From positions 1 to 50,018 of the forward strand of contig DUMU01000034.1 of the NCBI GenBank assembly GCA_012839805.1: a stretch of DNA of 50,018 nucleotides, written 5' to 3'. Origin of the DNA: Bacillota bacterium. Lineage in GTDB: Bacteria > Bacillota > Limnochordia > Limnochordales > DUMU01. The position numbers and the translations under genes were made by a program. Shown here in pieces: positions 43,002 to 49,800 of the stretch (the stretch's first letter is position 1; the number at the start of each line of letters is the position of its first letter). Below the pieces are notes generated by a model. It ran no database searches. It was not told where the DNA came from and saw only the letters and a list, made by a program, of their open reading frames with translations.

Positions 43002-45167
43002 TTACCTACGGCTCCATGCCTCTGCCTCAGTGAGAACAGTATCTCGCCCAGCAAAGCTATGAGGGTACTCCCCCCCCCCCGGTGCACTAATATTTTCCAT
43101 CTCTTCCAGCGGAATCCCCAGAAACGCCTCCACTACACGCGGGTCAAACTGCCGACCGGCGCACCGTCGCAGTTCCTCCCGGGCCTGCTCAACCCGGAGA
43201 GCCTCGCGGTACGGCCTAGCCGACGTCATCGCATCGTAAGCATCCGCCACCCGGATGATCCGCGCCAGAAGGGGGATCTCCTCCCCTATCAGGCCCGCAG
43301 GATAACCACCGCCGCCGTAGTCTTCGTGGTGGTGCCGCACTGCCTCAATTACCGCCGTCGGGAACCTCGCCGGTTCCAAAATCCTGGCCCCGACCACCGG
43401 GTGCAACTGCATCTCCTTCCTCTCTTCTTCATCAAGCCGTCCCGGCTTCAGCAAAATGTCTTCCCGCACACCGATCTTACCCAGATCGTGCAACAGCCCC
43501 GCCAGGTATACCTGCTCCTGCTCTTCGGCACCAAGCCCCAGCACGCGGGCGCAGGCCTGTGCCCATCGCGCCACCCGCACGGAATGCCCTCGCGTGTAAA
43601 CATCCTTGGCTTCCAGCGCCGCTGCCAGCGCCTGCACGGCACTCAAATAGTACTCCCGCAGCGACGAATACAGACGGGCATTCTGCAGTGCCAATCCCGT
43701 CTGGCTCGCAACAATCCCCAGATACCCGACTTCTTCCTCAGTCCACCGCCGCGGAACCGACGAGTAAATCTTCAGTGTCCCCAGAACCTTTCCGCCTGCC
43801 CGCACTGGCACCACGGCCAATGCACGTATTTCGGCTGAGTAGTATGGCAGATGCAGGCCCGACTCGCTGCCGGCCAGGTCTTCCACTACCACGGGCTCCC
43901 CCGTCTCCAGCACCTTCCCCAGCACGGTACCCTCGGGCCGCACGCGGCCGGCCCTGGCCTGCAGTTCCGCACCCATGCCAAGACTGCCCGTCAGCACCAG
44001 CTCGCCGGTTTCCTCATCAAGCAGCCGCAGGATACACCGCTCCGCTCCCAAGACATCCCTGACGCTAGCCAGAGCCGACTCCACCACCACATCCACGTCC
44101 AGGCTGCTCGAGACCACCCGCCCCACTTCGATCAACCGCTCCAGCATGGCCGCCCTTAACTTGAGCTCACGGAAAAGGCGGGCATTCTCAAGCGCCAGCA
44201 CCAGGCTCGTGCCCAGCGTGGTCAGAAACGCGGTCTCGTCTTCGGCAAATTCCGCTCCCTCCGGCCTGCCGGCTGCGGTCAGCACGCCCCTCACTCTGCC
44301 CCCAAACGTTAGGGGTATCGCTACGGCCGGCCGCCTTTCTTCCAGCGTCCTACCTCCGGGCCGGCTATTAAAGTGAACAGCACGCGTCTCTCGCTCAACA
44401 GCCGCGACCACTTCGCCCGACGGCACGACGCGAAACTCCTCACTGGATTCCGCGGTAGCCGCCACCTCCGAGGCCGCAACCCCAGGAGTATCGGAAAGCA
44501 TCACCACCGACCCGCTGGTGGCACCAGTTAATTCCAGCACCACTCCGAGTGCCCTCTGTGCGACCTCGGTCACGTCAAGGCTGCCGGAAACGGTCCGGCT
44601 GAACTCGAACAAAGCGGCAAGCTGGTCCGCCTTCCTGCCCAGTTCTTCTTTGGCATGGAGCAACTGAGCCACCGTCTCCGTTACCTTTCGCACTACCGCC
44701 GTCACCGTCCGGAGTCGCTCTTCCGTCCAGAGCGGCACCGCCCCGGCCGCCTCAAGAAGCCTTTTCAGATCAATGCCCGTCTCCCGGGCCAACCGCGTCA
44801 CCGCTTCCCGCGCGAGCGGCCGTAGAGCCACGTTGCCGCCAATCACCACCGCTACCGTTTCTCCGGCTACCTGCAGGGGAACCGCCACATGTACCAACCC
44901 GGCATGGCAGGTGTGAAGAACCTCCTCCCCCGACACCGCAGCAGCCCTTACCGAGGCCACACGCGAAGCTGCGCACCTCGCCCGCGCTTCCGGGCTGCTG
45001 TCGAGCAGGGCGCAGAAAGAGCAGAGGTTGGACGGCTGAGTCAGCGGGCGCCCGTCCGGGTAGGCAACCATTGCCGCCAACCCCAGGGCGCGGCTCATGC
45101 TCTCTTGAAGGTCGTGTAAACCTACCTGCTTGAGCTCTTCATAAAAAACGGACTTATCCTTCAGCAT
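43002..45167 (-). CDS. PocR-GAF-GAF-HD-GYP c-di-GMP phosphodiesterase
   Basis: About 721 residues. Order: PocR sensory domain (about 10-150: GLHDLQESMSRALGLAAMV, NLCSFCALLDSSPEARARC, HTCHAGLVHVAVPLQV, with several conserved cysteines), a helical linker, GAF 1 (about 190-330), GAF 2 (about 345-505) and HD-GYP (about 515-695). HD-GYP residues are present: HSVRVARWA, LLHDLGKIGV, HHEDYGGGGYPAGLIGEEIPLLARIIRVADAYDAM in outline. It should hydrolyse c-di-GMP. ATG 45167 overlaps the GGDEF stop (ATGCTGA); GTG 45191 is an alternative. The last 25 residues follow an 11-G tract in the coding strand. Confidence 0.87.
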   Translation of the reverse strand: MLKDKSVFYEELKQVGLHDLQESMSRALGLAAMVAYPDGRPLTQPSNLCSFCALLDSSPEARARCAASRVASVRAAAVSGEEVLHTCHAGLVHVAVPLQVAGETVAVVIGGNVALRPLAREAVTRLARETGIDLKRLLEAAGAVPLWTEERLRTVTAVVRKVTETVAQLLHAKEELGRKADQLAALFEFSRTVSGSLDVTEVAQRALGVVLELTGATSGSVVMLSDTPGVAASEVAATAESSEEFRVVPSGEVVAAVERETRAVHFNSRPGGRTLEERRPAVAIPLTFGGRVRGVLTAAGRPEGAEFAEDETAFLTTLGTSLVLALENARLFRELKLRAAMLERLIEVGRVVSSSLDVDVVVESALASVRDVLGAERCILRLLDEETGELVLTGSLGMGAELQARAGRVRPEGTVLGKVLETGEPVVVEDLAGSESGLHLPYYSAEIRALAVVPVRAGGKVLGTLKIYSSVPRRWTEEEVGYLGIVASQTGLALQNARLYSSLREYYLSAVQALAAALEAKDVYTRGHSVRVARWAQACARVLGLGAEEQEQVYLAGLLHDLGKIGVREDILLKPGRLDEEERKEMQLHPVVGARILEPARFPTAVIEAVRHHHEDYGGGGYPAGLIGEEIPLLARIIRVADAYDAMTSARPYREALRVEQAREELRRCAGRQFDPRVVEAFLGIPLEEMENISAPGGGEYPHSFAGRDTVLTEAEAWSRR
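43070..43080 (-). repeat. 11-base G homopolymer in the HD-GYP gene
   Basis: The plus strand has eleven C in a row. On the coding strand it encodes APGGG just after the HD-GYP domain. One base less would give a different 23-residue tail (ending HGAVGN); one base more would stop after APGGGGVPS. The catalytic domain is not affected in any frame. It could be a slippage site or a sequencing artefact. Confidence 0.75.
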
Positions 45168-46372
45168 GCCCGGCTCTGAGCGCTCGAGCACTCCTTCTCG
45201 CCGGCCGCCGCTCCTTGGGACCTGCCGTCACTGTGACCCAGCCCCAGGGGTTGCTCTGCCACCCGCCGCTCCGTGTCAGTCTCCGAAAGACACGGCTTGG
45301 AGGATCCCGCCTGGGCGAAACGCTGCGCACAAGGAATTTCCTGGTCTGAATCCACCCCCGACGGGGCATCCGGGTTCGGCCGCGTCCGGCCCTTCAACTC
45401 CTTTGCACGGTAAAGCCGCCGGTCGGCCGCCTGCAGAAGCTCCTCGCACGTGGCACCGTCCGCAGGCCACCCGGCAACTCCACCCGACAGGCCGGTGGCG
45501 ACTCCCATATCCCGGCTCACTCCTGCCACAGCCTCCTCAAGCCGCCGCATGACATGCTCACCCTCCTCCCGGCCACCCGGTACCACGACGGCGAATTCAT
45601 CCCCACCGTATCTGGCCACCGCATCTCCCCGCCGGACGGCACAGCGCATCGTCTCCGCCACCCGCTTGAGCACCTCGTCCCCGAACAGGTGGCCATGTTT
45701 GTCGTTCACTGCCTTGAACCCGTCCAGATCGACCAGTACCACCGCAAACTCTCGTCCTTCCGCGGCCAGATCCCCCACCAGCTTGTACAACGACCGCCGG
45801 TTGAGCAACCCCGTCAGCGGGTCGCGCTGGGCCAGCTGCATAAGCTCGTCCTGCTGCGCCGCTACATGCCCCACCACCAGGGATACAGCGCACGCCTCAA
45901 ACCACATGAGCCCGGCAACCACAGCAGGTCCCAGCAGGTGCGAGGCGGAAAAACCCTCCCTCAGCGAAGCCACACAGATAACAGCCAACGCCAGAGAATT
46001 GACCGCCGCCGACAGGTAGGCAGCCCGCGGTCCCGACCTGAAACCGTAAGTAAACACCGGAACCAGGAATAGGAAAACCAGCGGACCATCGGCGCCACCC
46101 GTGGCCACCACAAGGCCGCTTATCGCTCCGAGGCCGAACAGCATCGAGGCGAGTTCCACCAGCCTCTTGCGCTGCGGGCGGCACGCCAGCCCAGCAGTAT
46201 TCGCTACAATGAAGCCCGCCGCGAATAAACCGAGCAGCACAAGAAGCAACGGCTTGTGCTGCGGTACGGATACCAGGACAATAAGAACCATGCCCACGCC
46301 GAGACCGATCCTGAGGCGGCCGAGGGCACGCCAGACACCCTCCGACGGTTTCTTCCAATGCGAATCTATCAC
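45161..46372 (-). CDS. Membrane GGDEF diguanylate cyclase
   Basis: 403 residues. Six hydrophobic helices (about 20-190) precede a GGDEF domain (about 195-350) with RDPLTGLLNRRSLYKLV, DLDGFKAVNDKHGHLFGDEVL and an intact YGGDEF signature. An RRGD inhibitory-site motif (RxxD) lies five residues before the signature, so product inhibition by c-di-GMP is expected. A 55-residue polar tail follows. The start is GTG 46372 with only a weak ribosome binding site. Its stop overlaps the start of the HD-GYP protein, so synthesis and breakdown of c-di-GMP are coupled in one transcript. Confidence 0.88.
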   Translation of the reverse strand: MIDSHWKKPSEGVWRALGRLRIGLGVGMVLIVLVSVPQHKPLLLVLLGLFAAGFIVANTAGLACRPQRKRLVELASMLFGLGAISGLVVATGGADGPLVFLFLVPVFTYGFRSGPRAAYLSAAVNSLALAVICVASLREGFSASHLLGPAVVAGLMWFEACAVSLVVGHVAAQQDELMQLAQRDPLTGLLNRRSLYKLVGDLAAEGREFAVVLVDLDGFKAVNDKHGHLFGDEVLKRVAETMRCAVRRGDAVARYGGDEFAVVVPGGREEGEHVMRRLEEAVAGVSRDMGVATGLSGGVAGWPADGATCEELLQAADRRLYRAKELKGRTRPNPDAPSGVDSDQEIPCAQRFAQAGSSKPCLSETDTERRVAEQPLGLGHSDGRSQGAAAGEKECSSAQSRAC

Positions 46373-47456: not shown

Positions 47457-47969
47457 TCAGTGGCAGGCACTCCTGGTCCTCTTCCCCGCCCCTGGCGCGC
47501 CATACCGCTGCAGGTCGCCGCCCCCGGTGACAACGAAGAGACGACCCCTCATACTGCGGATTTGGTAGAGCATAAAAACGATCCCGCCAAGGTTCATCGC
47601 CAATCCCACAAGGGCCAATGGCGTTTTGATCTCGTTCAGGAAGACGGCCCCGGCTGAGAGCCCCAGGATAGGGAGCACATCCGCCAGGTGGTGGGCGCAA
47701 CAGGCTAACATGGCCGTCGCGCTAACCCCCGTGCTGCCGGCGGTCACCGCCGAATGCAGCCGCCGCGATTGATGCAGCCGCCGCAGATGACTGAAGAGTC
47801 CTACCTGAACACCGAACCCTACCGTTACCGGTAGAACGAACCAGGAGTCGTCCTTGAATTGCTGGAAAGCGTGTCCGGCATCTTGGGCTAGAGCGATGAC
47901 TCCCAGGTAGAAGGCGAGCAACGCTACGCTTCCCAGGACTCCAGCCCTTGCCGGGCCAGCTGTTACCAT
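47457..47969 (-). CDS. Four-helix membrane protein with CCxHH motif
   Basis: 170 residues with four hydrophobic helices (VLGSVALLAFYLGVIALA, FVLPVTVGFGVQVGLFSHL, ATAMLACCAHHLADVLPILGLSAGAVFL, ALVGLAMNLGGIVFMLY). The ACCAHHLADVLP motif inside the third helix offers two cysteines and two histidines for metal binding. Similar proteins occur near copper and mercury genes, but no reaction is assigned. ATG 47969 has AAAGGAG 12 bases upstream. It lies 55 bases after the next upstream gene and 59 before Lgt, in one operon. Confidence 0.7.
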   Translation of the reverse strand: MVTAGPARAGVLGSVALLAFYLGVIALAQDAGHAFQQFKDDSWFVLPVTVGFGVQVGLFSHLRRLHQSRRLHSAVTAGSTGVSATAMLACCAHHLADVLPILGLSAGAVFLNEIKTPLALVGLAMNLGGIVFMLYQIRSMRGRLFVVTGGGDLQRYGAPGAGKRTRSACH

Positions 47970-48024: not shown

Positions 48025-48612
48025 CTACTTCGTCTTGGTCTCTTCCGCCTTCGCCGCTCGCTCCGAACCGGCGGCTAGCAGCTTCCACCGGAAAAGCCGC
48101 TCCGGCACCCCACCCACATCCTGGATCACCAATTCCAGCCTATCGCTGTTAGCAAGAAACCCTTCCGGAATCTCAAACGCCAGCTGGCCACTTACGTGGT
48201 GACCGCCCGTAGGGGCCTTCCATGACTTGGGATGGAGCTCTTCCCCCCGGTCGTTGCGTAGGGCCGCAAGACGCGTCAGGTCGTAGTTCAACTCGACGGT
48301 ATGGGTATTCATCGCTACCTGGAGAGTGAGAATCTCCGTATCATTTTGTTCGACAGTACGACCGTCCCAGCGGACCTCCACGGCAACCTGCCCGGCTTCG
48401 GAAATCTGGGTTCCACCAACGCCTGCTACCTTGCCTGCCTGCAAAGCGGTAGTATTGGCCTTCCCGGACTGCGTTGTATCCGCGCTGCCTGCGATGGCAC
48501 CTACCTCGCTACTTGGCCAATTCTTCCAAACAGCAAGTCCGCCTGCCACTAGAACTGCTCCTACCAGAATGACCCGGGCCAGCTGGCTCGCCAGGCGCCT
48601 TTCCTTCCGCAC
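48025..48612 (-). CDS. Membrane-anchored protein of unknown function with GGHH motif
   Basis: 195 residues. One N-terminal transmembrane anchor (VILVGAVLVAGGLAVW), a polar linker, then a beta-rich exported domain (about 80-180: VAVEVRWDGRTVEQNDTEILTLQVAMNTHTVELNYDL, WKAPTGGHHVSGQLAFEIPEG, LELVIQDVGGVPERLFRWKL, in outline). Histidines in NTHTVEL and GGHH could bind metal. I do not recognise the family. GTG 48612 has GGAG six bases upstream. It is the first gene of the minus-strand operon that includes the CCxHH protein and Lgt, and its promoter is shared with the YHS gene. Confidence 0.65.
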   Translation of the reverse strand: MRKERRLASQLARVILVGAVLVAGGLAVWKNWPSSEVGAIAGSADTTQSGKANTTALQAGKVAGVGGTQISEAGQVAVEVRWDGRTVEQNDTEILTLQVAMNTHTVELNYDLTRLAALRNDRGEELHPKSWKAPTGGHHVSGQLAFEIPEGFLANSDRLELVIQDVGGVPERLFRWKLLAAGSERAAKAEETKTK

Positions 48613-48670
48613 AGGCCTCTCCCCCGTTCACTGGATATCATTCTTATCATTTGGAGTGTGCACCATCTGC

Positions 48671-48698
48671 CTGAAGAGAAACTGAGACGAACCTGAGA
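48671..48698 (-). promoter_or_regulatory. Three 11-bp-phased direct repeats, minus-strand operator
   Basis: On the minus strand TCTCAG, TCTCAG and CTTCAG start exactly 11 bases apart (plus positions 48693-48698, 48682-48687, 48671-48676). They lie about 60-85 bases upstream of the membrane-protein operon, before an A/T-rich TGATAAGAAT stretch that could be its -10. Direct repeats at one helical turn are the usual target of OmpR/PhoB-type response regulators. Confidence 0.6.
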
Positions 48699-48768
48699 GC
48701 AAGCTTAAAACGTGTGGGCCGGTGCCAGACCGCCTATGACATAGCCAGACAGTTTATTATCAGCAATC

Positions 48769-48796
48769 TCTCAGCTCTTCCTCAGGCTCTTCTCAG
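48769..48796 (+). promoter_or_regulatory. Three 11-bp-phased direct repeats, plus-strand operator
   Basis: On the plus strand TCTCAG (48769-48774), CCTCAG (48780-48785) and TCTCAG (48791-48796) repeat every 11 bases, upstream of the YHS gene. They mirror the set at 48671-48698, so each divergent gene has three half-sites pointing towards it. GATACC near 48804 could be the -10. Confidence 0.6.
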
Positions 48797-48846
48797 GAAC
48801 GCGCGATACCCTGGCCTCAGAAAGAAACTCGCAGGAGGTGGGTTAA

Positions 48847-49029
48847 TTGGCGCAGGACCCCGTTTGCGGTATGCAAGTCAAGGAAGATCGGGCCGCTGCC
48901 AGAACCCAGCACATGGGCCAGACCTACTACTTTTGTTCAACGGCCTGCAAGGCTGAGTTCGAAAAGAACCCCGGCAAGTATGTCAAGCAACACCAAGGCC
49001 ACGAAGGCCATCAGCACAGCCACCGATAG
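48847..49029 (+). CDS. Small YHS domain protein with histidine-rich tail
   Basis: 60 residues. The TTG start at 48847 has AGGAGG eight bases upstream. DPVCGMQVKEDRA, then QHMGQTYYFCSTACKAEFEKNPGKYV in outline, is a complete YHS (TRASH-like) domain with three cysteines that bind soft metals such as copper. The tail HQGHEGHQHSHR adds five histidines. It probably buffers or delivers copper in the cytoplasm. It is divergent from a membrane-protein operon with a CCxHH protein and shares its operator array. Confidence 0.87.
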   Translation: MAQDPVCGMQVKEDRAAARTQHMGQTYYFCSTACKAEFEKNPGKYVKQHQGHEGHQHSHR

Positions 49030-49122: not shown

Positions 49123-49800
49123 TTGGGGGAGTCGATTCATCCACAGTACGGGCTCTGGCCGCTGGTCGGGCTCAACCTGGCGTTGTTCGTGGGGTTTGCT
49201 ATCGGTTTCTTCCGGCCCCGTACCCGCACGGACTGGCGGACGCTGGGAGCGTTTGCCGCATTTTTGCTCGCCTTGTTTACCGAAATGTACGGCTTCCCGC
49301 TGACGTTATACCTGTTATGGTCGTGGTTCGGAAATCGCTTGCCTGGCCTCGATCCGTTATCTCACAATGCCGGTCATTTGTGGCAGGTTCTGTTGGGCTG
49401 GAAGGGCGACCCACACCTGAACGTTTTTCACTTCACGAGTGACTTACTGATCATTGGCGGCTTTGCCCTCCTTGCAGCCAGTTGGAAGGTGCTACACCGG
49501 GCCGTCCGGGAAGGGCACCTTGCCACGTCCGGGCCGTACCGCTGGATACGGCACCCTCAATATGCAGGGTTTATGGTGGTCATGGTCGGCTTTCTGGTGC
49601 AGTGGCCGACCTTCGCCACACTCTTGATGTTCCCAGTACTAGTACTTATGTACGTTAGGCTGGCGCGGCGAGAGGAACAGTCCCTGAAGGAACAGTTTGG
49701 CGCCGTATACGATCGATACGCGGACAGTACCCCCGCTTTCATCCCCGGGTGGGCTTCACTCGTGCAGATCTGGCGCTCGCGCGGTCCCAAGGAGAGTTAG
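49123..49800 (+). CDS. Isoprenylcysteine carboxyl methyltransferase-like membrane protein
   Basis: 225 residues, five to six transmembrane helices. The C-terminal region has the ICMT/NnrU-type signature GPYRWIRHPQYAGFMVVMVGFLV in outline and RREEQSLKEQFGAVYDRYADSTPAFIP, which binds S-adenosylmethionine and lipid substrate in related methyltransferases. Prokaryotes lack prenylated proteins of the eukaryotic type, so the substrate is unknown; bacterial homologues sit near metal-resistance genes. The TTG start at 49123 has GGAGGG seven bases upstream. It lies 93 bases after the YHS gene and is probably co-regulated with it. Confidence 0.8.
   Translation: MGESIHPQYGLWPLVGLNLALFVGFAIGFFRPRTRTDWRTLGAFAAFLLALFTEMYGFPLTLYLLWSWFGNRLPGLDPLSHNAGHLWQVLLGWKGDPHLNVFHFTSDLLIIGGFALLAASWKVLHRAVREGHLATSGPYRWIRHPQYAGFMVVMVGFLVQWPTFATLLMFPVLVLMYVRLARREEQSLKEQFGAVYDRYADSTPAFIPGWASLVQIWRSRGPKES

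Follow-up and report, generated by a model that had tools for sequence, protein, structure and literature searches.

The response regulator PhoP of Mycobacterium tuberculosis (PDB 5ED4) reads a TCACAGC-N4 direct repeat as a head-to-tail dimer. Its helix GDVNVVESYVSYLRRKID contacts TCACAGC through N212, V213, E215, S216, Y217, and Y220, and binding is tighter to tri- and tetra-repeats, with a Kd of 2.2 nM for tetra-repeats (PMC4832192). In Corynebacterium glutamicum, the OmpR-type copper regulator of the CopRS system acts on TGAAGATTTnnTGAAGATTT, a direct repeat of 11 bp within a single divergent intergenic region, and activates both sides of that region, including a Cu-ATPase (PMC3140484). For CutR of Streptomyces, the binding motif is TAWATAAA (PMC12802291).

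In this study, a divergent promoter in the genome of a Bacillota bacterium of the class Limnochordia (2.78 Mb, 51 contigs, 96% complete) was analyzed. The window, that is, the whole stretch of DNA under analysis, is the entire contig C22 (50,018 bp). We established the architecture, rarity, and conservation of two box arrays in this promoter, their genomic link to a response regulator encoded on contig C7, and their position before metal-handling genes. Both arrays are very probably operators of this one OmpR/PhoB-family regulator, which is predicted to activate both flanking operons in response to a copper-type signal.

Mirrored box arrays in the divergent promoter

The following elements were located between the two operons:
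48671-48709, minus strand: array of four boxes, in transcription order TTTAAG (48704-48709), TCTCAG (48693-48698), TCTCAG (48682-48687), and CTTCAG (48671-48676)
48758-48796, plus strand: array of four boxes, TATCAG (48758-48763), TCTCAG (48769-48774), CCTCAG (48780-48785), and TCTCAG (48791-48796)
48710-48757, no strand: 48-bp spacer separating the mirrored arrays, delimited by the array ends
48655-48660, minus strand: -10-like hexamer CACACT, exactly 10 bp past the last minus box
48807-48812, plus strand: -10-like hexamer TACCCT (TACTCT in the congener), exactly 10 bp past the last plus box

The period was exactly 11 bp across the four boxes of each array, and the arrays pointed outward, to opposite sides. 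A first-pass annotation of the window had listed three repeats per array; all six of its hexamers were present on the strand given and with exact 11-base spacing, but the number was corrected to four, as the outermost boxes, TTTAAG on the minus strand and TATCAG on the plus strand, had been overlooked. Direct repeats with a period of 10-11 bp are the hallmark of an OmpR/PhoB-type operator, and each side of the promoter carries four of them. A motif-free test, which accepted any hexamer that occurred three times at a constant period, with few mismatches allowed and with a common consensus on both strands within 150 bp, returned a single locus over the 50-kb window, namely the divergent promoter, and period 11 alone among periods 8-22.

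The arrays are flanked by two operons:
48847-49029, plus strand: YHS-domain protein of 60 aa, first gene of the plus operon (PF04945, E 3e-17), with a TTG start and GGAGG upstream
49123-49800, plus strand: membrane ICMT/PEMT-like methyltransferase, second gene of the plus operon (PF04140/PF04191)
48025-48612, minus strand: GGHH protein of 195 aa with an exported-looking domain, first gene of the minus operon
47457-47969, minus strand: ORF of the CCxHH membrane protein, 170 aa
46534-47700, minus strand: Lgt-type prolipoprotein diacylglyceryl transferase (PF01790, E 8e-55), whose true start is internal to the ORF

Neither the GGHH protein nor the CCxHH membrane protein had a match in Pfam or NCBIfam. 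Among 398 genomes of the phylum, 29 had homologues of the former, and alignment of the protein (positions 48028-48612) with 19 homologues (alignment A2) revealed invariant His104, Trp131, His138, His139, and Arg172, so that an exported metal-binding domain is a possible identity for the family. Downstream of the Lgt gene and on the same strand, positions 43002-46372 encode two proteins, one of the GGDEF and one of the GAF/HD-GYP-like type, which may be cyclic-di-GMP enzymes that belong to the regulated operon or lie beyond it.

Spacing between arrays and -10 hexamers

No sigma-70 -35/-10 pair was found in the promoter region, as expected if an activator replaces the -35. The last repeat lies about 10 bp upstream of the -10 without a -35, which is the placement of a class-II activator site. 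When arrays were selected by their boxes only, 14 of the 16 arrays from the order had the hexamer NANNNT at offset 10, as did 21 of 23 arrays near homologous regulators of other phyla, although these counts are not fully independent because some loci are close relatives (Streptomyces). At any other offset, it was seen in 0-4 arrays of the same two sets. Thus, a gap of exactly 10 bp between array and -10 marks this regulator clade in several phyla, although the search had not selected for it; such fixed spacing can serve to locate the targets of regulators that have yet to be studied.

The boxes overlap the -35 position, so the phosphorylated regulator could in principle block RNA polymerase by occlusion and act as a repressor. 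This mode is highly improbable: there is no -35 at that position to occlude, and 35 of the 39 arrays keep the 10-bp spacing to the -10, which suits a regulator that touches the polymerase.

Occurrence of the arrays in the genome

Genome-wide occurrences were counted by pattern searches. The exact sequence TCTCAG-N5-TCTCAG, which the first-pass annotation had suggested searching for, was present twice in the 2.78-Mb genome, in the divergent promoter and on C7. The full pattern (four boxes, N10, and -10, with up to 2 mismatches) gave five sites, two at the divergent promoter, two on C7, and one on C39, against none for the reversed pattern that served as control. Hence, the arrays are not equally common in random intergenic regions.

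Weaker matches at C20:70103, C6:17392, C27, and C43 of this genome, and on C12, C14, C17, and C20 of the congener G001 and C55 of G030, were set aside as chance or tandem repeats because the NANNNT hexamer was absent at offset 10. Simple tandem repeats with an 11-bp period and without a -10 occur in both species and mimic the operator in pattern searches:
C6:17392 (L060:6393-6420, contig C6 of this genome, G000): CCTCAGCATTA
G001:C20:85321 (L055:6322-6360, contig C20 of G001): CCTCAGCATTA

Such repeats give some substance to the notion that the arrays at the divergent promoter are themselves a product of chance or tandem repetition. We regard this as practically out of the question: mirror-image arrays were obtained in none of 60 dinucleotide shuffles under the motif-free test, the reversed pattern had no match, and the notion is refuted by conservation, in which spacers have diverged while boxes have been kept.

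Conservation in related genomes

The divergent promoter is kept in the congener G001, with the minus array at L050:8758-8796 and the plus array at L050:8843-8881; in the latter, 23 of 24 box positions are identical. Both C7 arrays are likewise kept there, and the CACACT hexamer recurs identically with its spacing in L013 and L050. Over the four orthologous array pairs, counted by hand, identity was 91/96 in boxes versus 39/60 in spacers (Fisher P 2.6e-6). The plus-side gene of the congener encodes a CopZ-N protein in place of the YHS protein; the promoter is nonetheless conserved. In the congener, the GGHH gene (L050:7851-8707) occupies two different frames, with the 3' part continuing into the CCxHH gene. 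A frameshift and a partial deletion thus seem to have affected this gene, whose promoter is intact.

Outside this family but within the order, arrays of G012 stand upstream of a gene for a YHS protein and one for a GGHH homologue (L059), and arrays of G008 upstream of SHOCT/PepSY-like genes (L204). YHS genes also lie downstream of arrays in L051. The earlier proposal that both operons are controlled together gains support from this promoter conservation and from the matching target families in other genera. In loci of about 3 kb around GGHH homologues from the rest of the phylum, no arrays were present; the array therefore belongs to the lineage of the regulator and not to the GGHH gene family.

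Further arrays were observed beside other genes. An array of G012 with a good -10, TAAGCT (L058:2328-2366), directly follows a mercuric-reductase-like flavoprotein gene and precedes a GAF/HisKA_3 kinase and a LuxR-type regulator. In other class genomes, AT-rich arrays with a -10 at offset 10 (L208:6355-6393, boxes TTTCAG x3/TTTCAT; L209:6566-6604, boxes TTTCAT x2/CTTCAT/CGTCAT) lie before other genes and are probably operators of related regulators.

The regulator encoded on C7

The second exact array lies in a cluster on C7 in which the genes follow each other on one strand: response regulator, histidine kinase, an array, cupredoxin-like, SHOCT, and PepSY-like proteins, a second array, and a small His-rich protein. 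The regulator is encoded as follows:
L013:12544-13260, minus strand: C7 response regulator (PF00072+PF00486)

Of only three OmpR-type regulators encoded in the genome, that of C7 is separated from the exact array by 3.3 kb and has two arrays within 4 kb, so that an OmpR-type regulator is encoded near sites of this type. The co-location of the regulator/kinase pair with arrays is in agreement with the OmpR/PhoB-type reading of the repeats made by the first-pass annotation, which had correctly placed the regulator outside the window; its suggestion to look for the gene just to the right of the window needs correction, as contig C22 ends with the window and the regulator is encoded on C7.

The internal C7 array (L013:10876-10914 and L051:10197-10235) is situated at the 3' end of the kinase reading frame, which places the promoter embedded between the kinase and cupredoxin genes. 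The small His-rich/YHS gene behind the other C7 array (L013:8804-9172 and L051:8504-9025, both minus strand) had no in-frame ATG, GTG, or TTG near its ribosome-binding site at either locus. In both species the reading frame begins with ATT or ATC (I-[AG]-I-D-W), pointing to a conserved start codon of an unusual kind.

Close orthologues of the C7 regulator, defined by at least 70% identity, were found in 4 of 73 class genomes (70-100% identity; next best, 53%). An orthologue was present in four of the five genomes with credible arrays versus none of the 68 others in the class (Fisher P 4.6e-6), and the four orthologues have a common recognition helix, GESNVLEVY[IV]GYLRRKLE. The fifth genome with arrays, G012, is congeneric with G008, and its assembly, fragmented into about 800 contigs, yielded no close orthologue. 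In G004, an array adjoins a different OmpR-type regulator, and the C7 orthologue lies about 34 kb away. These two cases, together with the 96% completeness of the assembly, leave some room for binding of the arrays by another OmpR-type regulator, encoded on C21 or C23 or missing from the assembly. We consider this improbable, since the C7 regulator tracks the arrays across genomes, whereas the C21 and C23 regulators have other reading helices (GDTRTIDVHVVRLRQKIE and GSDRTVDVHIKRLREKLE) and their relatives at similar distance occur in array-less genomes.

Across 80 loci with homologous regulators, the box-plus--10 model gave 29 matches versus 2 in reversed sequence. In Streptomyces, Paenibacillus, and one Clostridia MAG, the gene behind the array encodes a protease of the trypsin or trypsin/PDZ (HtrA-type) kind, and such regulators beside HtrA proteases presumably represent the MprA/CssR-type secretion-stress family. 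As arrays with protease targets extend across phyla, the operator type belongs to the regulator clade, and its use before metal genes is a feature of the present lineage.

Probable targets and signal

The C39 array precedes genes for a Cu-type P-ATPase (TIGR01511, 604 bits against a cut-off of 397) and a cupredoxin; on its other side, in divergent orientation, lies the gene for a CopZ-N-type 2Fe-2S protein. The cupredoxins match PF13473. With the C39 Cu-ATPase and the cupredoxins, the targets include a copper exporter and copper proteins, as is typical of a copper regulon. Most other Cu-ATPase genes of these genomes are without an array, and other Cu-ATPase and CsoR loci of the order showed no clear arrays apart from a weak one near a Cu-ATPase of G002. 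A CsoR-family repressor is also encoded in the genome and may share copper control.

Judging by the target genes only, a surplus of copper (or silver) at the cell surface is the most likely signal, on account of the Cu-ATPase above cut-off, the two cupredoxins, the YHS proteins, and the GGHH protein with its three invariant His residues. Envelope or secretion stress caused by misfolded exported protein, acting through the same operators and regulator, is a rather unlikely signal. Copper genes could respond to it because copper damages exported proteins, the homologous regulators of Streptomyces, Paenibacillus, and the Clostridia MAG have such boxes with an offset-10 -10 before HtrA-type protease genes, and Lgt and PepSY are envelope functions; however, none of the five sites in the genome precedes a protease gene, and the targets are a Cu-ATPase, cupredoxins, YHS proteins, and the three-His protein. 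As for the first-pass suggestion of copper or envelope stress, the metal theme held, on the Cu-ATPase and cupredoxin targets only, and envelope stress is the less likely signal, although those homologues have such boxes before protease genes.

Proposed mode of control

In the preferred reading, activation by the C7 regulator, the phosphorylated protein would occupy the four boxes on a single face of the DNA, in the form of two head-to-tail dimers. The proximal box would then lie about where a -35 would be, so that the regulator could recruit RNA polymerase as a class-II activator at two back-to-back promoters without a -35. The YHS/methyltransferase operon and the GGHH/CCxHH/Lgt operon would be switched on together, along with the cupredoxin/SHOCT/PepSY and His-rich genes on C7 and the Cu-ATPase/cupredoxin operon on C39.

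This reading ties two unknown families, GGHH and CCxHH, to probable copper handling. It also supplies a regulon and an operator that can be tested, in a class of Bacillota that has been little studied and is for the most part uncultivated. As a broader combination, which we put forward as possible though short of probable, the arrays may define an undescribed copper-homeostasis regulon of Limnochordia on four-box TCTCAG arrays, with the GGHH and CCxHH proteins as new copper-handling proteins and with a readable specificity step from PhoP (Ser216 to Val, box position 3 A to T).

Comparison with known systems

No use of TCTCAG as an operator was found in a literature search. The CutRS system of Streptomyces is also an OmpR-type two-component system, but the CutR motif differs from the TCTCAG boxes, as does the MprA motif of C. 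glutamicum according to the literature. With CusRS/CzcRS, the present system has in common the copper-type targets and the best NCBIfam match of its kinase (cztS_silS_copS); the C7 regulator and kinase stayed below the cut-offs of the regulator/sensor families TIGR01387/TIGR01386 (208.5 < 279.2 and 226.9 < 292.6 bits).

The MprA/CssR-type systems have homologous regulators (53-58% identity), TCTCAG/TTTAAG-type boxes, and a -10 at offset 10; the targets are proteases there and metal genes here. The CopRS system of C. glutamicum resembles the proposed system in activating two divergent operons by way of an 11-bp direct repeat. It has two repeats of another sequence at one site, whereas here each promoter has four boxes, each side has a separate array, and five sites are spread over three contigs.

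The nearest solved relative of the C7 regulator is M. tuberculosis PhoP (208 bits). The 11-bp period is alike, and the hexamer is TCACAG there and TCTCAG here. Five of the six base contacts (N212, V213, E215, Y217, and Y220) are kept in the C7 regulator, while S216 is replaced by Val and box position 3 is mostly T here and A in PhoP boxes. The pairing of these two changes is suggestive only; a strict rule that Val216 specifies T at box position 3 is not secure, because two Chloroflexi loci with Val or Ile mix TCACAG and TCTTGG/TCTCAG. The targets also differ, being metal genes here. In its proposed mode of action, the C7 regulator resembles class-II activators of the PhoP/PhoB type, and the divergent promoter is a new example of an already known kind of control system.
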